In this document: piece after piece, positions 10,838 to 57,298 of the stretch | Layout: the number at the start of each line of letters is the position of its first letter | Numbering within the stretch: position 1 is the first letter of the stretch | Assembly (NCBI RefSeq): GCF_000003815.2 | Contig: NC_049981.1 | Span: forward strand, 18,151,041-18,215,040 | From: Branchiostoma floridae | Lineage: Eukaryota; Chordata; Leptocardii; Amphioxiformes; Branchiostomatidae | Reading direction: 5' to 3' | DNA: 64,000 bases | Position numbers and translations under genes: made by a program | The notes under the pieces: generated by a model | Seen by the model: the letters and a program-made list of their open reading frames with translations, nothing else | What the model was told of the DNA's origin: nothing | The model's database searches: none

Positions 10838-13800
10838 CTATACAGTTGTCATGTATTCCACCAGCAAAGGTGGGTTGACCTTTTCTGATATCTGGCTCCT
10901 CACCCCAACTGAATGTGTGCCATTTAGCAGTATGTGTGGTCTTTGCCTCGCCTGTCTCCGTCTTCTGTATCTATTAGAATAGGAGAAAAAAGTCAGAGTA
11001 CATTTTGTAACTTCAACCTGTTCTTGTTGCTCACCTTGTAGTGCCTAGTGATACATAGGGCAGCAGGTTTCCTTACTGTTTCTGTGACGGGGTAATTTTT
11101 TACAGGGAGGGGGTTACCCCAAGGTTAACAAAGGTGAACTAGCATTAAATTCACTCAATTTTGTGTCACCTAGATTTTGAGGCACAGACTCATAGACCAT
11201 CAAGTGTTTGCGCTTTCTTTGTGAAGTCCTTGCAGTTGAAACATTAGGCCATGTTGATTCGATTATATGGATGACATCCTCTGGGAACCCCAAAACTGAT
11301 GCAAGCATGAGAATAAAAAATATTTGTTGCAAAAAAACAGTTGCCTTCATTATGAAGTTCAAGTCATAGAGAATAGTCTACAGAACAGTAGATTCTTGTT
11401 CTTTCATATCTTCTTTGACTTTGAATTAACTTTGGGCATTGCACATGTAGCTGGTGATGTCAATGCTATCACAACAGTTCAGCACTTGCACGGTTCAGCC
11501 CTTAGGATGATTCAGCACCAGGTCCAGGATGACTTGGGTTATGGTTGTACTATAGTTAAGGTTAGGGTTATGACAGACACTAGAAACAGCCCTAGGCCTG
11601 GTGCCAAAGTTATTTGGTAAGTGGCCAAACTGTTCAGGTGCTTAAACCTCCAATATTTGATGTCCACACTTACCTTCGTATACAGATGATAAGCAAGATG
11701 ACTAGCAATAGGACCAACAGGGATACGAAGATGGCACCGACAATTACAGCCACCGGTACATCCACCAAGTCATTGGCAACTTGTTGCTCCACAAGTGCAT
11801 GGTTACACCGAGGCCCCCAGTAGTCTGTTGGACATCTGGCAAAGAACATAATCTAAAATGAATTCATTTGGTCACACAGGCAGAAATCATACAAATTGAA
11901 GCACAACTGTACGACATATGCTGAATCCGTACTATCTAACTACTCACAGCGTGTTGTAGCAGGCCATTATATACCCCTGGCCAGAATCTACCTGGATATA
12001 TTTTGGTCAAGGGTACATTCTGGCCTGCTGCAGGTGGATTGACACTGTGGTTGCCAACAGCTTGACCACAAGAAGCTACACTGTCTAGCTGTTCCTTATG
12101 GAACATGTACAATTCAGATGTAAAATAAACTTTAAAACAAAACAGCAAACTAGGAAATGGACTGATTCAGTGCTCTCAAAGCAGAGGTTAGGCTCTAGCT
12201 GTCATTTCTGTGGCATTTGTCAGGCTTTCTTTTCTGTCTGGTTTTCTTTTAACGAAAACACCTCACCTATGATTATTGGTGTAGCTAAACCCCAATATTT
12301 GTCTATTATTTATTGTTTGCTTCAGGGTCAAAGGCCCATACACACATAACGTTACAGACCTAAAATAAGAACGTAAAAGAACAGGCTGTTGCTGGTTGCA
12401 AAATGATGATGTAAAGGGCATCAGGACAAGCTACTCGGAGCCTTTGTAAAGTACCTGGCACTGTGATTGTGCCAAAGCTGGGTGCAATACACCGCCAGAG
12501 CAATGTGACAAGAAGAGGGTACGCATCACCTCAGCAGAGCAGTATTTGAATGTTTGGATTAATGAGTTAGCTTTTGTACACAAGTGACAAGTTAGTTTAC
12601 GGATGGAGACATCATGGGAGACATCATGAGGTAGACTGAGAGAACATAAGGCAAAGGCAATCACCAAAAGCAACTACTGTGACAAGGAAAATACATGTCA
12701 ATTTATCTTCTGACAATATGCACATTATTAATAGGGATCATAGTCATTTGGAAATGAAGGTAGGTGACCAAGACAACATAAGGCAAAGGCATGCCATAAA
12801 GCTTCACTGAGGTGATGTTCCAAATAAGCAACTTAGGTGACAAGGAAAATACGACTTCGGTGACAAGGAAAATACAAACAATTTGCCTTCTCAATACGCA
12901 CACTATTGATAGGGATTGTAGTCCTTTTGAAGGGACAATAAACATCAGTCCCATTATCAAATGAGAGCCACACCTTGAACACATTAATTAAAAGACTTGT
13001 CACACCTAGCAACAAAAGTGAGGGTACCCCCTGGTGTGCAATGGGCTTGGCTGCTTGTCAGTCCATTGAACAACAAGAAAAAGTACAAAATGGTCAACAG
13101 CATCCGGCAAAAACCTTATATACATTCGTCAAAATTGTTTCTGGTGTGATTTTTTATCAATAGGTTTGTATACTAATGTAACAGTAATTGTGATTAAGTT
13201 CACGGGATTAATTTTGTGGAAGGGAAGAAATGTTTGCGGTGGTTTTAAGTTTGCAGCTGGAACAAGGTAGGCAGGCAGGAGTATGAACAAGCATTTTTGC
13301 GGTCATTGCAAAAACTGAACATTAAACCCCACAAACTTAAGTCCACTGTAAATGCATTCAAGTTTGCTTTAATTTGATTTGATTCGTGGTAGGGAGAAAT
13401 TGAGTGTTCGGTAAAGTTTTAAGTTTACAGTTGAAACAAGGTGGTAAGCAGGCTGAAGACAACAAGCCTTTTTGAGAACATTGAACCACTGCAAACTATA
13501 TCATTTGATTTCTCACTATGGGATGGCAAACACTAAGGCTGTGGCAAATTCCCTGTCAGTGTCAAACAATGAATTCGTGATTTATTCTCTATATTGTTAT
13601 TGACTCAGGTGCCAATCTGTCTAATGAATAACTTATGACTGGTGCATGTTCCACATGCCTCACCCAGAAGTAAGGTGCACAACTCAAATTTTGGGGACTA
13701 ACTATGAAGTGTAAAGCTTATATAAACAACCACAATTCAAATCATTATGATCATCACTAGGTATTACCCAGTAATGTTACTAAGGTGAGGAAAACTGTGA

Positions 13801-16800
13801 CCTGAGGTGTGCAGATCAACTTGCCCCGGTAAAAGTCAAACATTTTGACATTAAGTCAAACATTTTGACAATTTTATGGCATGAGGAACTCCCACATACA
13901 TGTAGCTCTAGTCTAATCACAGTTGCTCACCCTTGTTTCTCTGGTCATTTACCTACTGATTTTCAAACAGATTTGGTTGTTATCGATAAAAGATTTCATA
14001 CTAGAATCTATGTAGAATGCATAGAATGCTCCAAAATTTGAGTTTGACATGTTACGTCACTATAAGAGATCACAGTCATCATTTGATGGATGGTGATATC
14101 AAACTGTTGGCCCAGTATATGATGGAGCTAAGGCATAAACCTCGGGCAGTAAGTCTTTGCACATAAAAGAGCCCAACATAATTAAAAGAGTATGGTGTAA
14201 TGACTTAGTGGGTATGATTGAAAATGCTTACCGTGGCAAGGCCGCTGTACAATTACACCAATAGCCCTGAGATTCTACCGGGAGTCCCTCAAAAGGGATT
14301 TTTTCAGATTTTGGCCGTCAATATTACAAAGTGTCATCATGAAGGGGACCTAGAGTTACATTGGTCATTTTGTATCTTTCTTATATTGCAACAGGATGAG
14401 GAGAAAATGTTGGCAAACGATTCTACAGCATTTGCTTAGCCTGAAAAAAGGCCAGTGTTGACAGGGTCGGTCTGATAACTGGTAACAAGATTTTATTCCT
14501 AGGCCTGAATTGTGAGTGACAGGCCTAAGGCATTCACTGACTGATACACCCTGTGTCAGTTGTGATAGGGATGTCAGTTGAGTTCGTTCCAATTAGTTTG
14601 TAAGTGGGAGACTCAAGTTCACTCCTGGGAAGGGCATCTCAGCTTGCACCCCTCTTTTGGAAGGGACATAGAATGGGGGCCCTGACTCCTGTTGTATAGG
14701 AGTTGCTTCAAGCACATTAAAGGGGATGGCTAAAAAAAAAACCTGTAAAAATATACATGTACTCTGAGACTGAAACAAGGGTCTGTCAGAAACAGTCGTA
14801 CTGGTACATGTACTTACAAACACAATGCTTCGTCTGCCTCCGCTATGTACTCACAGATCCCCCGCAGACAGTAGCCGGTAAACCTGTCCGGGCACTCGTC
14901 ACCATCAGCATCACGTTCTGCCCGTGACGCTGTTCCTGCAATGGACAAACAAGTCTCGTGTTACACCACTTCTGCCTTCCATTTTTACATTACAAACTGC
15001 AGATGTACACCAAGACAGGCAAACTGACAAAACTGATATTACAATACAGTAAATGCAGGAATGTTTGCGGAGGTTTTACGTTTGCAGTTTTTGCGGTCAT
15101 CGCAAATTCAAAACCACCACAAAAATTTTGTTCTCTCTTCTCCCAAAGTGCTGCCTTATTGAAGCAATTGGCTCCCTGTAAAGGTGCCGGTGTTTTAATT
15201 GCTGTACAATACGTGACTATTGTGTGAACTCAGAACCTAGTGACCACAAACACTCGATTTTCTCCTTACAGCGGAATTAAATCCCCACGAACTTGCATGC
15301 ATGTACATTACCTCCGTTTCCACAGAGGTGACAAGGCAATTAGAGATGGCAGACTTCACCCCATTATCTTTATCACTTTACATGACATTATGTGTTTCTG
15401 TAATCCCTAATCAGAGATGGCAGACTTCACCCCCTTACCCATACTGATATGTGATCCTTCCCGACCCACTGACAATAGTGGCAGCACTGATGTTTCACAG
15501 CTGCATTATGTTTTGGTATTGTAGAAACACAGGAAGACAGACAGACACACAGGCAGATAGACAAGCCAAAAATAATGCTTCCCTTTCTTGTGGGTAAGTA
15601 AACAAAGGAGTCACCAACAATTCTTTTTGTTTTCAATTGCATACCCGGCAAACCACCTCAAGGCGTAACACACCAGGTTTGCACAAGCTGCATATCCATA
15701 CAGATTTATTTGATCTACTGTCACCGGAACAGACCCCTACTTTTCTTGTGTGGTGGGTTCTTTGACCTGCTTGAGGTGTGGCTCTCCTCAAACACAGGAC
15801 CTCCATTTAACACCCTATCCAATCACAGCTAGGTACTCATTTTCACCTGAGTGAAGTGAGGGAATTCCTATTAAGTGCCTTTCCCAAGGGTACAATATCA
15901 CTGGGGCATGTCAGGAGATTTGAACCCAGGACCTCCAAGATCTGGGCCAACCACTATACAGCTTTGCCACACCAATTCCACTCAATTCTTCACATACTGC
16001 CAAGGTCACAACCTGTAAAGCAGGGGGCCAGGGTTTACCAAATACCGAGTGACAGGTCACTTGATGCGTAACCTTGCAATAAGCAGGTGTCTATCCCATG
16101 ACACGCCTACACGTATGAGTCATGGACTAATTTCAACCCAAAATTGATGTTCTTTGGATAACGCTTCAGTCCCCCTGTTGAAATCCAGTCAACTGTAAGT
16201 ACCAAACAAGTGAATGCACATTCCGACTCGAAAATCTAGTGCACAGTTTTGTCACACTTCTTTTACGTGGGTCTTTTGAAAAAAAAAAGCTTGCCAAACT
16301 TATAATGGTCCAATGTGACTGCCTTTTCGTGGACAGTGAATGTTATAGCCGTTGTTTTTTTTTGTTTTTTTTTCATTTGGTAGATTCCCTGACACAAATT
16401 TCCTACTTAAGTTGTAAGTAAGCATGGTTCTATTTTATCAGAGTTTTTTTTAATAGTCACTTTCTAAATGTTTCCAAAATATCGAAATGAATTAAGATAA
16501 ATTCATTCTCTATTTTTTGAAAGATGCAGAGCTATTGTGACTTTGATATTCTTTTATTCTAATACAAACTTATTACAAATATTATTTAAAAACCCTCTTT
16601 GTGACTTTGAATGGACTCTTTAAAAATTCATCACAGCTTTTTTTTTTCCATTGAAGTAGTAGATTCATTCGGGTGTTAGTTTCCCCATGACACAAATTTC
16701 CAATAAAAGTTTTAGTGGCCTCTTTTTCTTTTTTCTGTTCACAGTAAAAAGTTGTAACCTACACAGTCTTATCTTTCCAAGACACGATAACATGCCTTCT

Positions 16801-17970
16801 GTGTGTCCAGCCACCCCTTGTATACATGCGTCAACACCTGACGTCAGAAGCACGTGTGCCTTCAAACCCTTTCTTTCCAGGTGTGAAAATGTCTGTCGTT
16901 TCACGTTTGCCAAGCAAACCTCTTCGTAACAAAGGGCTAAGGAATCCGCTAGACAAACATTCCTTCCTTGGCTTCGTCGCTTGAACTTCGCATTGGGTTA
17001 CACATATACATGTACAGTGGCTGTCAATACCTCCTGTTGTAGTGTAAACATTTGTCTACAAACCTTATACACACGACTTATTTTTAACAATTTATAAACA
17101 GCGTGCTCAGAATAGCAGGTGGTTGGTCCTACGGAAACGACCAGGTTTTGCAACGTCATAGTTACGTAATTACGAAGTCTTACGATAATCACAGATAACG
17201 TACCCCCTCAAATGGGTCTACGAAAACAACCGACTTTCCATGAGCATGTACTCTGGATTGCTACAGAAACAAATGTAGAAATCAGCTAAGCAGGCTAGAT
17301 GGCTTTTTAGATGAGTTAGTCTAAATGACATCCTATTCAGTTTCCCGGGGCTACCATATATTCGCTCTTTCAAACTATTTGACTCCGGGCTAGAGACGTT
17401 AGTCGGCATGGTTTGAGAATGTACGGAACTCTATGAATGGCTAACACCTCTGGCAAATTACTCACCCTATTTGGCCATTCTAGGCTACTTGTATTTGGTA
17501 GAAAACCCAGGACTCGGGGGCCACTTGAGAAAAACGGTATTGCATATTAAGGCAAACGTGAACTCTATTTACAAAACCCTTGTGGCCTGGTCTTGTTTGG
17601 CACATGTATATGCCTAACGTTATATCGTTACTATACGGTAAACCGGATACCCAGTATGTCCGAGAGAACGCGGTGTGTGGGCCTATTGGGGGCGTTTCCA
17701 GTGGCCTTGTACACGTGTGCTTTGTTTTAACGGCTGCTTCAAACTAGTCCAACCACTCTGTCATTTCAACACATTTTAAGCGAGTTGCTAGACACGGTGG
17801 GTAAGGGAACACGGCGCTCCGTAGCGACCCACTTGTTACCAGGCGATATCATCTTAAACACGGACTACGAACACTAGCCGCACACACCTGTAGTGGTCGT
17901 CTCACCTGCGACACTTACCTGGCATGAGACAGAGCGCAAGAAGCAAGATTTGGTCCGATGTGGTCCGCAT
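10838..17970 (-). CDS. EGF-family transmembrane ligand precursor 1 (154 aa)
   Basis: Four exons on the minus strand, in reading order 17970-17919, 14935-14818, 11835-11674 and 10970-10838, with TAG at 10840-10838. Phases 1, 2, 2 join exactly. Residues 1-18 form a hydrophobic signal peptide (QILLLALCL). A single EGF module has cysteines at 32, 40, 45, 56, 58 and 67; the spacing 7-4-10-1-8 is that of TGF-alpha. Arg66 precedes the sixth cysteine, as the receptor-contact Arg does in EGF. Residues 83-109 are one transmembrane helix. The tail is basic (RRYRRRRQARQR) and ends in TTV. The intron between exons 2 and 3 splits the module between cysteines 4 and 5, as in vertebrate EGFR-ligand genes. ATG at 17970 is chosen because a signal peptide follows at once and a TATA-like site lies 67 bases upstream; the frame is open further upstream. 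By inference it is shed by a metalloprotease and activates an ErbB-type receptor. Confidence 0.85.
11015..11105 (-). repeat. SINE fragment, (AAC)n-tailed tRNA-derived family
   Basis: Tail-side part of the family best seen at 40180-40400. It carries the shared blocks TTGTAGTGCC, ACATAGGGCAGCAGGTTTCC and TTTCTGTGAC. It lies in the last intron of EGF-like gene 1. Confidence 0.6.
12644..12930. repeat. Imperfect tandem duplication in intron of EGF-like gene 1
   Basis: CATAAGGCAAAGGCA occurs at 12644 and 12777. GACAAGGAAAATAC occurs three times, and the block CACAxTATTxATAGGGAT occurs at about 12721 and 12899. Two diverged copies of 130-180 bases are present, the second with an internal insertion. 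Confidence 0.6.
13215..13500. repeat. TTTGCGGTGGTTTTAAGTTTGC repeat family, two adjacent copies
   Basis: Two copies (about 13228 and 13408) contain GGTxxTTTTAAGTTTxCAG, then AACAAGGTxGxxxGCAGGC. Related units lie at 4010-4065, 15058-15115, 49620-49700 and 61250-61285, often next to a terminal motif close to ACTGTAAATGCA. This looks like a short non-autonomous DNA element. Confidence 0.5.
15047..15290. repeat. Copy of the ACTGTAAATGCA / TTTGCGG repeat family
   Basis: Begins with ACAGTAAATGCAGGAATG, then TTTGCGGAGGTTTTACGTTTGCAG and a partly inverted CGCAAATTCAAAACCACC. It ends near ATTAAATCCCCACGAACTTGCATGCA. Intronic in EGF-like gene 1. Confidence 0.5.
15735..15995 (-). repeat. tRNA-derived SINE, minus strand
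   Basis: On the minus strand a B-box-like GGGTTCAAATCTCC is followed by CTTGGGAAAGGCACTTAAT and CCTCACTTCACTCAGGTG. The last block matches the core of the SINE copies at 42636 and 63415. The end of the element (TTGAGGAGAGCCACACCTCAAG) is shared with fragments near 8440 and 62900. Confidence 0.55.
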
Positions 17971-18036
17971 GGAGGAAAACACAAACAGCGATGTGACTTG
18001 TTCGGAACCGCGTGCTTTAACTGAAGGGGTTGAACT

Positions 18037-18043
18037 CTTTATA
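18037..18043 (-). promoter_or_regulatory. TATA-like element upstream of EGF-like gene 1
   Basis: TATAAAG on the minus strand, 67 bases before the chosen ATG at 17970. Initiation about 30 bases downstream would give a short leader and would leave the more upstream in-frame Met codons outside the message. Found by eye only. Confidence 0.4.
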
Positions 18044-19082
18044 CAGACCGATCCGGTACAGGTGCCATGGAAAGTACACAAAACACAACAACAGTTTGTG
18101 GTGAGGGTCACGGAGGAGGGGCAACACCTATTTCCGGTCGTAGAGCTCACAAGTCCACACACGGACACACATGGTACATTTGTGGACTTCTGCCAAATAT
18201 GGCGGCATATCAAATGACAAACGATGGGCGTTCCTCTTGGAGATTGTTTTATTCTTATCAATTGACCTGAGACTTATTGTAGCGGTCGGGCGAGTGGGTG
18301 GCGCGGCACAAAGGTGAGGCCGGATGCACGCGTGTGACCCATGCTAGTCTGACGGAAGGAGTTAAAATTCTCCAGATAGTATACTCTTAATGACACACAA
18401 CGTTACGTGCTGCTTAACACAACATGAACGCTGAATTTGGGGGACAGAATTAGAAAAAGTATATGATTTTCACTTGTGGAATGGTGTAAGTGCATTGAGA
18501 CACTTGTTAGTAAACCTGACGGAAGACACCAGCACACGTCAATGCACTGCCCATGTTTTCAGTGTCACTTGCAAAGTAATGATAATGATGATTAAAAGTT
18601 TGGCAGGAATTCATTAAACTTTGTGCTTTATAGTTATACCTCTAACCTTATTTTGGCGAGGCTCAGGACGTATTGATTACCACTCATAACTGCCTTGAGC
18701 ACGAGAAAAAATGCACGCACAACCGTTTATATGCGTCTTCTTGGCCACTTTTAACACGACTAGCCTGTACGAGTCTGACTTTTTTTCTCCTGGCATATAA
18801 CACAAACCCTCTGGCATGCAAAAAGATCTTGGTGACCAAAAGGTATAAACTAGGTGCACAGCTTCAATTTCTGTACCCACTGTAACCCAGTATTTAGGGT
18901 CCTCTTGAGGTTAAACTACAATCAAGCAATTTACCAATTGTGCTATGAATATACTATAAAGTCCTTACGCTAGATTTATATTTGTCTGGTATATTTATCA
19001 GACCTGCTCAACAATCACTGGTAACTTACTAAATTACTACCCTACCAACCCACTAAAAGAGACAAACTACGTGCGGAGTGAC

Positions 19083-19239
19083 TAGCCTCTACCAGGCTCC
19101 GTGGTTCGGTGGTCTAATTGTAGAAACAGGTTTGGATAATGGTCCTACTCGGCCGGCTGACTCCCCTAGCGTACTATTGACTCTATTTGTCCAATTTCTA
19201 CAATTAGACCAACCGAACCACGGAGCCTGGTAGAGACTA
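19083..19239. mobile_element. Fold-back MITE with 9-bp target-site duplication (Mutator-like size)
   Basis: A left arm (19087-19127) is the reverse complement of 19195-19235 apart from about two changes. Termini are TAGCCTCTACCAGG and CCTGGTAGAGACTA. The element is flanked by perfect direct repeats CGGAGTGAC at 19074-19082 and 19240-19248. Nine-base duplications are typical of Mutator-like transposases, so this is probably a non-autonomous element of 157 bases. It has no coding capacity. Confidence 0.8.
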
Positions 19240-21450
19240 CGGAGTGACCGCTAGGGCGACCCGCGGCTTAAAAGGGATGAGCACCAGGGTCGATATAGAC
19301 CTGATGTCACAGACAAAGTTATTTTTATCAATGGATTGAACCAGAGACGTTGGTCCTGGATTCGAATTTTATCTAGCTACCTTTCTTTTGCCCTTGCCTT
19401 TACACGGATTAACACGGCTTTCCTGACTCCACTCACATGGGTACTGACTTGAAAAGGAGAGGTTGGGCCATGCATTGCCACATTGTCTTTTTCTGTCTCA
19501 AAGAAAATCAAAAAACACACGATAGGGTGAATTACCCTTGGGGTTTACACAACCTGCGTTATTCAATATAAGTTATATTGCAACTGGATAGATTTTGGAA
19601 ACCTACCTTGTGTTTGGACATTTGGATGACCATTTCTAGAAGTTATCCAGTTCCTTCCGTAACACTTTTGTTGTTGCACGGATGTCTAACCTTCATCGAC
19701 GAAGCTGTGTTGTTATTTTGGGGCATGGTTGATCTGTTCTCTGCCAGGCACAAGTTAATATAGCAAATGAAAGGTCATCACTGCGCCGCGCCTGTTTGTG
19801 ACTGTTGGCGAAGGACAGTCGCTTCAAATGGCAATTCGAAAAAAAAGACATGTAAGAAAGAAACGTAAGAATAAAAAAATGTAACGTACTAGACGCCAAC
19901 ATGTGCCAAAATGGGAGCCAATGGACACCACTGGGATATATCGATGAATCTGAGATACAGATTACACCATCACGTCCTCACAGATAAACATATTCAAGTC
20001 ATAGTGTATCATATATAATTTGCCCGAAATGCACACTTTTATTATTGCAAATCTCTTTTCGGTTCAGTTCAGTCCATCCTCCGAGAGGTGAGACCAGGAT
20101 TTCCAAACCAGCATGACAGAGCAAAGCTCGTCGACCTGATCTGAAGTCCTGTGTCCTCCATAAGTAACTTCCTATTAAATTTGCAACAAACTTATTATTG
20201 GTGTCAAGGAAGGGCGACCACACCACCCACGACGCTCGTCCGTTTGCCATTAGCGTTATATATTTGTTTTAAATTCAGTGGCATTACTGCGATTTCCGAT
20301 GACCTACTCATCTGGGCCTCAGTGGCAAATGCGTCATACGTCAGTTTGAGCTGCAAGGGAAATTTTCGAAAGTTTTTATTTTTTGACGCCAACAGTAGCC
20401 CGTGTACCATTATCCTTTGAACCACTGGCTCAATTTTTCGATTGCTAACGTCGTTAACTAACGAAAGAAAAGTTCGGCCCAGTGGTTACAATGGAGGATG
20501 GTACCCAGGCTACGCTGACGCTAGGCCAATGAGTACGCTTTTAGCTCTGGTCGCAATCCACTACCTGCCACGTTGTTGCCGATACATAAGCTGAACAAAC
20601 CCGATCTACAGACTCGATAAACCCATATCTAAGGTAGCAAATCTCGTCTGTCAAACCCTCAGGCGTCCTGGGCTCGCCTTTAGTAACTCATGGTTTATAA
20701 ATAGTACAACAACAACTTCTATAAAAGCGCGTTTATTGTCCTGAGCGGTGGGCTTCGTGACTTGCACAAATCTTCCAGCACATGTTTTGTGTAAATCATT
20801 CTGTGTACCTTTCTACTGTATAGGCGAAAGGAATGTAATATAAAACAATGTAACAAAACTGTGCGATGTTTAGTGGGGATATGTGCCCAAGGGGGAAAGG
20901 CTCATGTGAAAAGAATTTGATCCTAGTGAGGGATCGCGTATGCTTTTCGGGGCAAGAGTCATGTCATTTTCGTGGGTGCACAGATCCTTTAAATGTATGT
21001 GTCGGCGAATGCGTAAAGTCCCCACTCGGAAGTCACCGACTTTGACAAAGGGGAGAATATTTCAACGAACTGACTCAATAACCCCTGGCCAGAGATATTG
21101 TGTAAACCCAGGCTACTTTGGGACATTCCTTGGACAAATTATTTATGCCTTCTTGCTTGTGGCCAAACGTGTCCACATATTATTGCATTGACGCAATGGT
21201 ACCCGCCTTTCTAAAAAGACAGTGACGTGAATGGTTTCACCACGCTTTTCATGGTAGGGATTAGGGAAGAAAATGCTGTATTTCTGGCTACCCAACCGAT
21301 CCTAGACTTTTTTTTGGATCGACTGATCAACAAGGGACACAAAATTTTCGATCTGGCATCTGAGTAATAAAATTCAAGACAAACATCCTGTATTCCACGG
21401 TCTGTTAACAGATATTATAAAGGGCAATGAACAATTAACGTTAAAATGTG

Positions 21451-21531
21451 TAGTAAGCATTGTACATCTTTGCTCAGTGATTGTGCAATGATTGCACAAT
21501 CACTGAACAAAGAAGTGCAATGCTTTACTGG
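21451..21531. repeat. 81-bp near-perfect hairpin
   Basis: AGTAAGCATTGTACATCTTT pairs with AAAGAAGTGCAATGCTTTACT across an inner perfect stem, CAGTGATTGTGCAAT/ATTGCACAATCACTG, with a one-base centre. No clear target duplication was seen. Probably a miniature inverted-repeat element. Confidence 0.65.
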
Positions 21532-22544
21532 TACTATATACAATGTATATCTTTATGATTACAATGTGACGTTCAACATATCAGTGTCCTGAAAAATCCT
21601 TACTTTACCGATCCTACAACGTGTCAGGACCGTAATCAGAAACACAACATGTATTTTCCGCGGCCTAGTGCAAATACGTCAGAGGAAGGGGGGAGTTCAT
21701 GTGAAAGGTTTTGACCTAGAAGGACGGTCACGGTCATGGTCATGGGAGGGGCCTAACCCCTTCCTTATTGCACGATACTCAACACTTGGAGAGTCATGTT
21801 TCCCAATTTAGGAGACTCGGAGACTATTGTATAAAGGTATGAGTCACATTTTCGGTTATTCACCTCACTTCATCTGTAAAGGAGGAACTGTTGGGTCTCA
21901 GAGATCAAAATTGGCTACATGGTCCAGGCGATTGGTGCAAAAACAGTAATTTTAAGTTGGTCAGATCTAGACGAACTTTACCTTCTGATAGACTTCCAGG
22001 GGTGTCCTCATTTGAAATCAACACTGTCGGTCGTAAAAATCTGAACAACAAATTCAGATATTTGAGTCTCATTCTCAAAAAAAAATATGCATCTGTGCTA
22101 AATTTCATCTCATTTGATGAAGAAATGAGCCAATTATTACACCAACGGCATTACTTTTTGACTCCCCTCGTACTGCATCCTGTTTCCGTATCAGGGTATA
22201 TTCTATCAATCTTTATTGCTCAACGACTGTAGTGGGTGCAATGTATGGCAAATTCTAGGCAGTAACGTTACATACATAAGAAATCAAGACTAATATCTAC
22301 ACAATAGCTTATAACAGTAACTATATATGTGACTAAAGACTAGGTAATGTGCTATTCTATCTGAGTGGTCATTTTACAGTAATGGTCATGGCTTACATGG
22401 CGTACTACAGGACACAAAGTTAGCATAAATTGCTTGTGTCAGAGATGATGCGTTTTCGTTTCAGAAGAGCGTTAAATGGAGATACTGTTTTGGGTGTATC
22501 GTGATCTCTGTGCGTGTGTGTGTTTCCGGATTTTGTAGTCAGCA

Positions 22545-22690
22545 TAACTCAAGAACCTCTTGATGGATCATAATGATATTTGGTATGTGGGTAGGTGTGT
22601 AGACAAAGGTCAAGGTCGATATTGGGTCCCCTACTAGTATATGACCTTGGTACTGCAGTAGAACTTCCGTTTTCTGTCCTTTTGACCTGG
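22545..22690 (-). repeat. Repeat family A copy
   Basis: Shares TTGATGGATCATAATGATATTTGGTATGTGGGTAGGTGTG-type blocks, then GACCTTGGTACTGCAGTAGAACTTCCG, with six or more loci in the window (25225, 30850, 39215, 49185, 55265, 62145). Confidence 0.6.
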
Positions 22691-23889
22691 CCATGCTATG
22701 GTCTTGATTTTTGGTGGCAGGTAGCTTGTGTGAGGCCCCTAGCAACTTGCTCTGGAACTGCCGGGGCGTTTTCGTCAAAATCTTCCAACGGAACAAAGGA
22801 ACACAAGGATTTCCATGATATTTAGTATGCATGTATGCAAATATACGCAATGAAGTGTTAATTGTGCAAATTAGGACTTAATTTGCATATCTATTGAGGA
22901 AAATCTATCTTTATAGTGTTTTCCATGATAGGACTCAAATACATGTATCGTATGTAGCTTGTGGCAGGTGAAAGATGAACATATACCAAATGTGACAATA
23001 AATTGCTGATTTGCATGATTAAAGTAATAGAGCACATTTCTAAGTAGTGAACTTTGATGATTGGATTGTCTACATTGTGACCTGTGTAAGTTAGTTAAAG
23101 GTTTCCAAAACCAAGGGTAGGTTATGCATATGTGACAGTCATTTCCATAATCAGAATATTTCATTGAGATATGAAGTCTCCGAACTCTTGTTACGGGGTG
23201 GCGTTTCTAGCACTTCCCCTTTGTTGTGCTTGAGACACCTCTTTGGACTCGGCACTAAAAAGACGTACAGAATGCCCCCAAACGTTATATTTACATTGTG
23301 TACTTTTCGTTAAATGTCAAACAGTAACGACCAGACAGTCAATTAAGAAGCCAAATCTTTTCATCATGATTTGCAACATTTATCAATAATACTGATACAC
23401 ACTGTACATATTTCTCACATTGTTGTCTCAAGTTTACAAATAAGTTAGGGTTAAATATGTATATATAACCATATGTTGAATTTTTACAAATGTACTATGA
23501 ATTTTTACTAGAAATAGTAAATGAAACGATGACATTGACGTTTTTTTTACTAATCCATTTCTTAAAAACATATTTACATAGCGTATAGGTACACGCGTCT
23601 AGAAAACGGACGGACGTTTTTACATGTTTGCTGCAAAAATTAGTTTCGTTTTTCTACGTTTCTCCCGAAGAGCTTCGGTTGTCAAATGGCAGAATTTGCC
23701 CGCAAGGAATCTGCTAGTTACAAGCTTGAAGATGAAGATGGTCGCCAAAGATGATGATCAACGAAGATGATCTGAGGATAGAAACGAAAACTACGATGAG
23801 TCCAACGGATTTATAGGATGAAACATGGAAAGAATATCTGTTATAGATGCATACATGTTTATACACAATTTTTTTTTAAACAAAATTGT

Positions 23890-24155
23890 TGTGTGTTGTT
23901 CACCTTGCAGTGCCTGCTAGTGGCACATAGGGCAACAGGTTTCCATGATGTTTCTGTAACAGGGACCGTTTTACAGAGAAGGCCTTCCCTTTAACTTGCA
24001 TGCTTTAGACCCCCCGTTAATTTTACGCTCTTTCCAAAAGACGGATGCACCAAGGCGCTCATCCCAGGATTTGATTTGGGGTATCCCAATTACCAACAAG
24101 TGTAACCAGGAGCTAAACTGTGAAGCTGCTACCGTTGAGTTATAGGGATATCACT
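23890..24155 (-). repeat. tRNA-derived SINE, (AAC)n-tailed family
   Basis: On the minus strand it reads from TATAACTCAACGGTAGCAGC (A-box-like head) through CAAATCCTGGGATG to a tail side with GGGCAACAGGTTTCC and GTTGTGTGTTGTT. Same family as 40180-40400. Confidence 0.6.
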
Positions 24156-24226
24156 TTCTGTTTTCGGACAAAATGACAGTGAAAATATCGTAGAATAGCC
24201 TTACCTGCTACGTGTAGTATAGTCCA

Positions 24227-26964
24227 CTATACATCTTGCGTGAGTCTGTCTGTAGACTGCCCTTTCTCCAGGTGGGTGTGAGCCGGACCCGCACTGTCGG
24301 ACTCTCTTCGACATCTCCTGTTCAGAAAATGCAGAAATCGTTTAAATCAGCAACTTGCCATGATCAAGACAGTTTCTGTTAATCATGAAAACTAATTGTT
24401 TAAAAGATGTTTTCTGTGATAAAGTTTCTGCAAGTGATTTAAATAGATTTGATCTATTTGGTGAGAATTTACCCCGAATATTGCGTGTTTGTTTCTTTTA
24501 AGTCTGTTACATGTCTGTCTATGTGTATTTTTATTTAACCCTGGCCTTTGGCTGAAATGGTGTAAATCAATAAACATAACGCAACCCCTGCCTCTAATGT
24601 CTAATGTGTAATGAGTATTGTGGGGAATACTGGGATAGTTGTAATTTCTCCTCCTGCCTCAGCCCACTCCATTATTTTTTCTTCAAAAACCCGAGGACCA
24701 AGATACTGAACTGGAAAAGCCTAACGGAAAGTATAGGTTCGCCCCTGAGGCGTGGCAAAAAGGTTCTCTCGGCCTCACCTGACTAGAAGTACGATCCCTC
24801 CGACCAGCAGTAGTGTCAGGAGTGCAGACAACACGCCGATGATGATGTAAGTGTCCCTTAGTTCCGTCTTCTGTCCCGCCTGGGAGAACGGGATGTGGTA
24901 CTGACACCGCTGGCCCCAGTACATCTCCAAACACCTGAAACGTCACGGGATGGTAAGAATACACAAAACAAGCTCCATTGTACCAATATAAGGTTTTTAT
25001 CTAGTACTTATATGTCGAAAATTCAATTTACTATGTTAATCTATTACGTAACACACAAGATCCATTATCGAACTTGACCTTATTTTCCCGACCCCTTGCT
25101 ACCTAGTTAACTTCCAGCCAAAACTTCTAGATATACGCAATAGCATAACGACATACAAACACAACGGCGCAGAAAATACATCGTAATCTGGAGTCTCTAA
25201 ATTACTAACAAAATTATTGCCTTCGCCAAGAAGGTTATGCTTAAGTGCCATTTAAGAAGATGGATCCTTATGATACTTGGTAGGTGCGTAGGGGCCAAGC
25301 TCGATAATGGGCCTTCTAGCGGCTTCCTACGGTACTGCAGCAGATCTTCCGTTTTTCATATCTTATTCTATCAGTCACTGTTCTCACGTACCGACAGGAT
25401 GCCTCTTGAAAAGCGGCTAGGTACAGACACTCTCCCCCGTGTAGACAGAACCCGTCATACCCCAGGGGAGGCGAGCCCGTGGGGCAGGGGATCCTGTGTG
25501 TGGTGTGAGCCTCCGTGGTTGACATGTTGTTCACCTGTAGCTCCTCCCCTGGGACTGCCGCGGACATGGTGGGGACTGCCGCGGAGATGGTGGGGACTGC
25601 AGTGGACACGGTGGATGTCACATCTGAAGCGATACCATCGGGCATGACGATAAGGCAGGCTTCAAGTGATCAAATTATGGAAACAAATTAAATTTTTCTT
25701 CGATCAAATTCGACCAGGCCAGCCTTGCCATCGAAACGATGAAGGGTAGCCCATGCAAATATTATTTGAGCAACAAGTCATTAATACAAATGGCATAAGA
25801 CAGCAATACATTACAGACAATTCTCATCTAGGAATTTTCTTTCTGTCATCCGCATTGACATTCCTCAATAAATAACAGTATACATTTAAAACATGGAATA
25901 ATCCTAAGACTAACTGACAGCTTGTACCAACATAGATGAACAACATGATGTGATATGTTATGCATTTTTTATCAATTACGCATATCGTATATCAGATCAG
26001 ATCATACGACACCATACTGTACCATATGATGTGATGTGATGTGATGTGATGTAGTGCGATATGATATGATATGATATGATAGGTAATTACGATCTTCTTC
26101 TTGGTTCTATATCTTACGATATGTGTATCATAACATATCATATTACGTTGTCCTATGTCGGTACTAGCTGTAGTCTTAGCTTAGACAAACACCGGTAATT
26201 GGTGCATTTATAAAGACTCTGCTATCCTAGCCAAAAAAGGTAAGCCATTCCACCCAGCCATACCAAAGGAAGGAGGATTTCCCTTGTTTTGTACTATGAT
26301 GTCATAAATGGAATGCGAAGATCACACCTATGTCTGACTCGCACAGTAAAAATGTTGAAAATTCCATTTTTACCGTTGCATTCTGTCGGTTATATAGAGT
26401 GTATTTCTGTAGTATTAAAACAACGTTTAGAGTTATATCTACTGTTTGAAAAGCAAAGTTTGTTTTTGAAGTGTATTTTACGTTTCCACCAATCACAACG
26501 TTTGAAGTACAGTTGTCGAAACCAAACTGCCGCAGCTGGTACCTGTAAATTGACTTTTGGCCTAACTTCCATTGGGTATGGTATTGTCACCATATGAAAT
26601 TCTTTGAAGGTGTAGCCTAGTAAACTGGCAACCAAGTTAGGTATCAGCCAAAATGTAGTGAACGTTAGATCTAAACTTACGTTACCCGAACCGTACTAAG
26701 TTGTTACGTCAATGACGGATAGACCCCCAAGAAGTAATGTGATACACAAGCAAAGTAACAATTACTCAAGCAACTGGATACCGATATAGTAAAGTTTTCT
26801 GGTCGACCATATCCAGTTTCTTGAGTATAAACTGTCACCTTGAGTAAGAAATCGTATGCTATTAGAGCCTTTGCCTCACCTTGTGACAGCACCACAGATG
26901 ATGTCGCTATCCACAGCGCCACACACGTACTTAATAAGCGGTGTACACTTCCTGTGTTAAACAT
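24227..26964 (-). CDS. EGF-family transmembrane ligand precursor 2 (187 aa)
   Basis: Four minus-strand exons: 26964-26880, 25623-25392, 24934-24779 and 24317-24227, ending in TAG. Phases are 1-2-2, as in the neighbouring EGF-like gene. Residues 1-28 are a signal peptide. Residues 33-72 are a Ser/Thr/Pro/Ala stalk with heptads AVPTISA and AVPTMSA from a 21-bp minisatellite, likely O-glycosylated. EGF cysteines are at 75, 88, 94, 105, 107 and 116 (spacing 12-5-10-1-8). Loops 2 and 3 match EGF closely (FCLHGGEC, Arg115 before Cys116, then QY), but the first loop is five residues longer than usual. A helix at about 135-157 spans the membrane; the tail RRCRRE ends in TQDV. The intron again splits the module between cysteines 4 and 5. 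The exon 2 acceptor could instead lie 30 bases upstream, which keeps the frame and adds ten residues. By inference this is a membrane-tethered, sheddable ErbB ligand. Confidence 0.83.
25225..25360 (-). repeat. Repeat family A copy
   Basis: Contains CTTATGATACTTGGTAGGTGCG, CTTCTAGCGGCTTCCTACGG and TACTGCAGCAGATCTTCCG-type blocks shared with the other family A copies. Intronic in EGF-like gene 2. Confidence 0.6.
25552..25601 (-). repeat. 21-bp coding minisatellite
   Basis: Two 21-base units starting at 25552 and 25573, differing at one base, plus a third partial unit. They encode the AVPT(I/M)SA heptads of the stalk of EGF-like protein 2. The unit is a multiple of three, so copy-number change would keep the frame. 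Confidence 0.8.
26024..26080. repeat. Pentanucleotide microsatellite (ATGTG/ATATG)n
   Basis: Runs of GATGTGATGTGATGTG grade into GATATGATATGATATG. Intronic in EGF-like gene 2. Confidence 0.85.
26760..26830. mobile_element. Short copy of MITE family B
   Basis: Inverted ends ATTACTCAAGCAACTGGATA and TATCCAGTTTCTTGAGTATA enclose about 30 bases. Fuller copies lie at 34628, 50493 and 50865. Confidence 0.7.
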
Positions 26965-32067: not shown

Positions 32068-32202
32068 TTTGGTAGACCTAGACGACCACACACAAATCTG
32101 GTGCCAGGTGCCATAAACCACACCATGTGGTAAAGGCAAGGAGAGATCCATTGTTTATTTGTTTGCTAGAGAGATACAGTGTGCTATATCAGGTCATTTT
32201 GT

Positions 32203-32302
32203 NNNNNNNNNNNNNNNNNNNNNNNNNNNNNNNNNNNNNNNNNNNNNNNNNNNNNNNNNNNNNNNNNNNNNNNNNNNNNNNNNNNNNNNNNNNNNNNNNN
32301 NN
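32203..32302. other. Assembly gap (100 N)
   Basis: Exactly 100 N, 204 bases before the first recognised KAT6 exon. It may hide a non-coding first exon or promoter sequence. Confidence 0.99.
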
Positions 32303-32559
32303 CGGACATGTTGTATGGGATTGCTTTTGTCATTTCAGATGGTGACGTAACAATGTGTATTAGGGAGCTTTGGCGTAAGCCTCCAGCGTCAAACCTCAGC
32401 ACGTAAAAGAGTAGAGGTTACATGGTTTGCTTGGCCGCAGAGCTGCATTGCACCACTAGCTACCTAAAGTAAAGAGCATAAACTTAACCTTCCCTTCTGA
32501 TTCCAGGTGCGGAAGTGCAATGTGACTTTGCCAAGTACCATGTCACTGTGTGATTGACC

Positions 32560-48326
<15,767 letters not shown>

Positions 48327-49954: not shown

Positions 49955-57298
<7,344 letters not shown>

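Follow-up and report, generated by a model that had tools for sequence, protein, structure and literature searches.

Two neighbouring probable ErbB-ligand genes beside KAT6 in the amphioxus Branchiostoma floridae, and further genes of their kind in the same genome

Structure of the two genes

The window, a 64,000-nucleotide stretch of the Branchiostoma floridae genome (C3:18151041-18215040), contains two genes, A and B, that were rebuilt on its minus strand. Each consists of four coding exons with GT/AG borders and a continuous reading frame, and the intron phases are 1-2-2 in both (Table 1). By hydropathy, each product is hydrophobic at its N-terminus and contains one strong membrane segment; a single six-cysteine module lies about 20 residues ahead of the membrane helix (EGF module at residues 32-67 in A and 87-128 in B). 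The eight exons and the hydropathy bear out the preliminary description of this locus as two minus-strand genes, each encoding a signal peptide, a single EGF module, one transmembrane helix and a short basic tail; its attribution of the DNA to an invertebrate chordate was also right. The lengths that it gave, 154 and 187 residues, hold for A, and for B only with one of two candidate acceptors of exon 2: an AAG acceptor (start 25659) yields 199 residues and a CAG acceptor (start 25623) yields 187, a difference of 12 in-frame residues.

Table 1. Positions of the genes and exons. Rows without a contig name refer to the window (position 1 is C3:18151041).
Feature	Position	Strand	Description
Gene A	10838-17970	-	154 aa
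Gene A exon 1	17919-17970	-	ATG and hydrophobic leader (predicted signal peptide), phase 1 end
Gene A exon 2	14818-14935	-	EGF loops A and B (cysteines 1-4), phase 2 end between cysteines 4 and 5
Gene A exon 3	11674-11835	-	EGF loop C (cysteines 5-6, GPRC), stalk, transmembrane helix, phase 2 end
Gene A exon 4	10838-10970	-	Basic cytoplasmic tail, C-terminus MTTV, stop
Gene B	24227-26964	-	199 aa, or 187 aa with the alternative exon 2 acceptor
Gene B exon 1	26880-26964	-	ATG and hydrophobic leader (predicted signal peptide), phase 1 end
Gene B exon 2	25392-25659	-	Pro-region with 21-nt tandem repeat, then EGF loops A and B; phase 2 end between cysteines 4 and 5
Gene B exon 3	24779-24934	-	EGF loop C (GQRC), stalk, transmembrane helix, phase 2 end
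Gene B exon 4	24227-24317	-	Short basic cytoplasmic tail, C-terminus TQDV, stop
KAT6-type MYST acetyltransferase gene	32554-48326	+	Pfam domains between 32554 and 41675
Adenosine kinase gene	49955-53118	-	Two exons identified (49955-50236, 52900-53118)
C5 first half	C5:14191019-14191107	+	Split-module reading
C5 first half	C5:14196442-14196530	+	Split-module reading
C5 first half	C5:14199709-14199800	-	Split-module reading
C5 first half	C5:14203195-14203274	+	Split-module reading
C6 first half	C6:9491125-9491216	+	Split-module reading; gene locus 9491125-9491423

ErbB ligands follow the spacing C-x7-C-x4/5-C-x10-13-C-x-C-x8-C with G-x-R before the last cysteine. The spacing is 7-4-10-1-8 in A, which fits this motif throughout, and 12-5-10-1-8 in B, which fits except in the first interval; G-x-R precedes cysteine 6 in both. 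The signature 4/5-10-1-8 with an arginine before the sixth cysteine, as first proposed for the pair, is therefore present in A and B alike, and it is in the first loop that they part, with x7 in A and x12, five residues longer, in B. After cysteine 6, A has leucine at +4 and valine at +5, and B has isoleucine and proline, so that neither carries leucine at +5. That leucine is important in EGF and TGF-alpha; amphiregulin and the neuregulins also lack it, and it is therefore not a defining feature of the whole ErbB-ligand family.

A 21-nt tandem repeat (three copies, 25551-25614) in exon 2 of gene B encodes a repeated AVPT(I/M)SA in the pro-region. Both cytoplasmic tails end in valine, as does that of TGF-alpha, where the residue is used for trafficking. 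One TATA-like box per gene is found on the same strand within 400 nt upstream, 73 nt before the ATG of A and 189 nt before that of B, which lends weak support to the gene models because the background is 0.27 such boxes per kb and strand. ATTAAA occurs 159 and 884 nt past the stop of A, whereas the 1.2 kb that follow the stop of B contain neither AATAAA nor ATTAAA. Regarding the earlier statement that no intact gene separates the two, one frame between them (22539-22877) was put to Pfam, and had no match; a frame at 56594-56944 likewise had none.

Relationship to known ErbB ligands

Both products were searched with phmmer against 177,635 PDB sequences, a comparison that covers relatives with a structure. 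A had 33 matches at E <= 10. TGF-alpha was the best (1.5e-8) and an ant venom EGF-like peptide the second (6.6e-7), followed by epiregulin, epigen, amphiregulin, EGF, betacellulin and HB-EGF (1.2e-4); apart from the ant peptide, all of the best 21 are ErbB1-type ligands. The weaker matches include a short EGF (4.6e-3), unrelated membrane segments (from 0.09), neuregulin 1 (0.21) and an isolated EGF-repeat construct (5.5), and no protein named Notch is among the 33. B had 43 matches at E <= 10, the best five being EGF or EGF/TGF-alpha sequences (4.5e-10 to 1.3e-9). Next came epiregulin (3.2e-5), amphiregulin (4.5e-5), HB-EGF (1e-3), heregulin (5.7e-3), and epigen and betacellulin (both 9e-3), after which the non-ligands protein kinase C gamma (0.03) and mussel PVFP-5 (0.041) stand slightly ahead of TGF-alpha (0.051) and Spitz (0.07); the first Notch, Notch 1, appears at 0.17. 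Searched without the other exons, exon 2 of B already has EGF as its best PDB matches (3.3e-4 to 4.1e-4), and joining the exons improves the best EGF match to 4.5e-10. Under the Pfam EGF model B scored 18.1 bits, below the 21.5 cut-off, and A was unlisted. An Ig I-set domain ahead of the EGF module was looked for, and the Pfam matches of A and B (E <= 1) include no Ig family.

According to the available text of Stein and Staros (PMC1618406), the mark of an ErbB ligand is that its module is spliced between cysteines 4 and 5 and lies close to the membrane. Both gene models have a phase-2 intron at that point. The same text reports this exon split in mucins, meprins and IMPG2, which are merely candidate ligands. 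The exon split and the best PDB matches (TGF-alpha for A, EGF for B) nevertheless uphold the original assignment of the pair to the ErbB-ligand type. The grouping with Notch/Delta-type proteins that had been set as the refuting result did not appear in the PDB searches, and on these matches both a structural EGF repeat and a Notch/Delta relative were rejected.

Vertebrate TGF-alpha, the best match of A, has the same 7-4-10-1-8 spacing, and its precursor is presumably built like A: a signal peptide precedes the single EGF module, and a transmembrane helix leads to a short tail ending in valine. It differs in having leucine at +5 rather than +4 after cysteine 6 and in having six coding exons instead of four. 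Vertebrate EGF is closest to the module of B, with which it shares x5 between cysteines 2 and 3 and CQY after the C5-C6 interval, whereas B has five extra residues in its first loop; vertebrate pro-EGF contains many EGF repeats, and B, at 199 residues, a single module. Drosophila Spitz, an ErbB ligand with a transmembrane segment, is a weak match to B (0.07), is unlisted for A at E <= 10 and, unlike A and B, has no intron between cysteines 4 and 5, as stated in the available text of PMC1618406.

To judge from the DNA, A and B are very probably two ErbB-ligand genes of amphioxus, a reading to which we assign a probability of about 0.87. They are well-supported and ordinary in kind, further members of a known family, and their interest lies in their position and in the larger complement to which they belong.

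Further split-module genes in the genome

The pair stands out from chance in a scan for split modules, which looks for a first half ahead of a phase-2 donor and for a second half that follows a phase-2 acceptor and contains both GxRC and a membrane helix. In the strict form of the scan, any first half that contains over five cysteines (a simple repeat) is left out of the count. It found two first halves and two second halves in the window, exactly those of A and B, compared with 11 first halves and no second half in 1.28 Mb of shuffled sequence (20 block shuffles). A looser scan of the window returned an additional 12 first halves, all in simple repeat, and two second halves attributed to chance. 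To look for a third ligand close by, the split-module scan covered the window, 50 kb upstream and 40 kb downstream, and gave no further second half; the upstream stretch has two overlapping first halves without a second half.

The whole genome (513,431,437 bases in 431 contigs; the chromosome assembly is described in the available text of PMC7269912) was then searched, with match counts that are lower bounds. The search with A gave at least 10 matches, four of them its own exons and the six others at E 0.027 or worse; one of these six is an exon of a gene on C5. With B there were at least 18, four of them its own, and 6 of the 14 others (E 0.018 to 2.2) lie at ligand-type loci, with four matches on C5, one on C6 and one in A. 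Such E-values alone prove nothing, and five further genes were accepted because their loci show the split module, the spacing and the membrane helix. At least five more split-module genes are thus present, four on C5 and one on C6, making at least seven with A and B. The split-module scan read one first half and no second half at each of two places on C15, and no half module at a C16 locus (E 0.54).

In each of the five C5/C6 genes the second half lies 0.2 to 0.9 kb downstream of the first. The C5 cluster spans 13 kb (14191019-14203999) and has one of its four genes on the opposite strand. All five share with A and B the phase-2 intron between cysteines 4 and 5, the C-x8-C ending in GxRC, and a membrane helix behind it. 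They differ in the interval between cysteines 3 and 4, which is 13 or 14 residues in four of the five and 10 in A and B. A genome search with the C6 module gave at least 13 matches (two of its own, two on C5 ligand genes and nine others); a minus-strand frame near the C6 gene is presumably P4-type ATPase-like. A profile of all seven modules had 52 PDB matches at E <= 1, the first unrelated protein appearing at 4.1e-4. Its best 28 are the ant peptide and 27 ErbB ligands, counting EGF/TGF-alpha chimeras, and here neuregulin 1 (1.8e-9) ranks above TGF-alpha (8.8e-8).

The seven genes bear on how A and B are related. Trees were built from about 45 residues per module, with the human and fly modules typed from recall, and are poorly supported. 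With the five C5/C6 genes included, A grouped with TGFA and BTC (0.81) and B with the C5/C6 genes (0.91); a second tree of this set gave neither A nor B a resolved place (28). In an earlier tree, built without the C5/C6 genes, A again joined TGFA and BTC (0.82), and B stood close to Spitz and EGF (0.20). A 2016 survey (PMC4914847, available text) likewise finds the signal in EGF-type ligands too small for deep trees. With trees this unstable, a duplication of one from the other is not shown. The old tandem duplication that was first proposed is not established: the exon split is common to five more genes, and these poorly supported trees do not show A and B to be sisters.

ErbB receptors in the same genome

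The Pfam model GF_recep_IV matched eight places in the genome at E <= 1, on C1 and C18; as a control, it gave a below-cut-off match in 1 of 14 control genomes. The C18 exon encodes ErbB domain IV (best match the EGFR chain of 3ltf, 9.7e-13; ErbB4, 3.7e-11). It occurs at two places about 445 kb apart on opposite strands (C18:10639431 and C18:10194749), with identical protein and 83% DNA identity over 963 aligned bases, and represents either a duplicate receptor or an unmerged haplotype. At C1:17307182-17307526 are repeated cysteine-rich units like ErbB domain IV, with LET-23 as the best match (2.3e-20); this ErbB-like frame may belong to a receptor paralogue or to another protein. The preliminary description spoke of a single ErbB receptor in the species. 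One EGFR is indeed counted for B. floridae in the available text of the 2016 survey (PMC4914847), but with the second copy of the C18 exon and the ErbB-like frame on C1 a single receptor is not confirmed.

Proposed mode of action

A and B would each be made as a type I membrane pro-ligand, routed into the secretory pathway by the signal peptide, with the single EGF module held outside the cell on a stalk of about 20 residues and the tail inside. The stalk would most likely be cleaved by a metalloprotease, freeing the module. The freed module, or the anchored form on an adjacent cell, would then bind an ErbB receptor and cause its dimerisation. The predicted anatomy, the exon split, the best PDB matches to EGFR-type ligands and the ErbB-type receptor exons can be read from the genome itself, whereas the expression, shedding, binding and signalling of A and B are inferred.

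Neighbourhood of the pair

The pair lies between a lysosomal alpha-mannosidase gene and a KAT6 gene, beyond which follow adenosine kinase (ADK) and a prenyltransferase beta subunit. The KAT6 gene is recognized by Pfam domains (SAMD1-like winged helix, linker-histone-like, and MOZ_SAS at 5.3e-12). Long frames from 45560 to 48326, without a Pfam match, were joined to it by position and are taken to resemble KAT6. A run of N (an assembly gap or masked) lies just upstream of KAT6, at about 32200-32310. The adenosine kinase match is at 1.4e-26; the prenyltransferase beta subunit was identified by Pfam, and we take it to be RABGGTB-like.

In human, ADK adjoins KAT6B in a gene list for 10q22 (PMC4256931), and KAT6A is at 8p11-12 and KAT6B at 10q22 (PMC12678635), in the available text of each. 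Laisney and colleagues, in the accessible text of their 2010 paper (PMC2834686), trace the EGFR ligands of human chromosomes 2, 4 and 5 back to a single gene of a proto-chromosome; in their model the EGFR ligand was lost from the fourth copy of this proto-chromosome, on chromosome 10; the neuregulins (NRG1-3) are in regions derived from the same proto-chromosome. They found no clear EGFR-ligand orthologue in Ciona or amphioxus, and for this reason the number of EGFR ligands before the duplications was left open. A ligand pair beside KAT6 and ADK is what the 2010 model leads one to expect at an unduplicated locus. It is one microsyntenic link, on which the mannosidase and prenyltransferase neighbours have no bearing.

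A larger reading is possible, though we consider it rather unlikely: the C3 pair may be the surviving unduplicated chordate EGFR-ligand locus with its ancestral neighbours KAT6 and ADK, its TGFA-like and EGF-like genes pre-dating the vertebrate genome duplications, human 10q22 being the copy that lost its ligands and the vertebrate EGFR ligands descending from two genes. A literature search on KAT6B and ADK deletions found no paper.

Alternative readings of the pair

The same neighbourhood could be read differently. NRG1 lies at human 8p12, and A and B could be pro-orthologues of the neuregulins, of neuregulin type but lacking the Ig domain, and their linkage to KAT6 would then parallel that between NRG1 and KAT6A on human 8p. 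The shared proto-chromosome of NRG1-3 (Laisney 2010, PMC2834686) and the position of KAT6A (PMC12678635), both as given in the available texts, agree with this, as do the x5 between cysteines 2 and 3 of B, a spacing that neuregulins have too, and the rank of neuregulin 1 over TGF-alpha in the seven-module profile. Taken singly, however, the genes point elsewhere, with neuregulin 1 at 0.21 for A and 0.0057 for B against 1.5e-8 and 4.5e-10 for the best EGFR-type ligand, and with no Ig domain among the Pfam matches of either (E <= 1). The trees are too weak to decide, and we regard neuregulin origin as improbable.

A and B could also be single-EGF membrane proteins that are not ligands, carrying modules like those of mucins or IMPG2 and serving in adhesion or as decoys. 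The exon split is not exclusive to proven ligands (PMC1618406, available text), loop A of B is elongated and the +5 leucine is missing from both proteins. Against this, true ligands are the best PDB matches of the genes singly and of the seven-module profile, and ErbB receptor exons are present in the genome. In size and architecture, moreover, A and B presumably resemble TGF-alpha, and a non-ligand role appears quite improbable. That one or both are non-expressed relics is very improbable, given that despite the missing AATAAA/ATTAAA within 1.2 kb past the stop of B, the frames are open through all eight exons, whose borders are canonical, the genome search met each gene's exons once (counts being lower bounds) and TATA-like boxes, a weak sign, lie ahead of both.

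Significance for the EGF ligand family

The available text of the 2016 survey (PMC4914847) lists five EGF ligands in B. floridae, four EGF-like and one neuregulin-like, and some of the seven genes were therefore probably counted there; that text, supplements aside, gives no loci, pairing or synteny for them. Our literature search, with most subscription journals outside its reach, found no paper on these loci among the records listed.

With the pair located, together with its neighbourhood, the four-gene cluster and the single gene, synteny and expression can be tested in one animal. The amphioxus complement also offers an independent example in which ligands have multiplied and receptors are few. 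If the larger reading of the locus is true, human 10q22 (ADK-KAT6B) would be the ligand-less copy that the 2010 model requires, and the vertebrate EGFR ligands would stem from two genes, not one. The neighbourhood of the pair hints at the origin of the human EGF-type growth factors.
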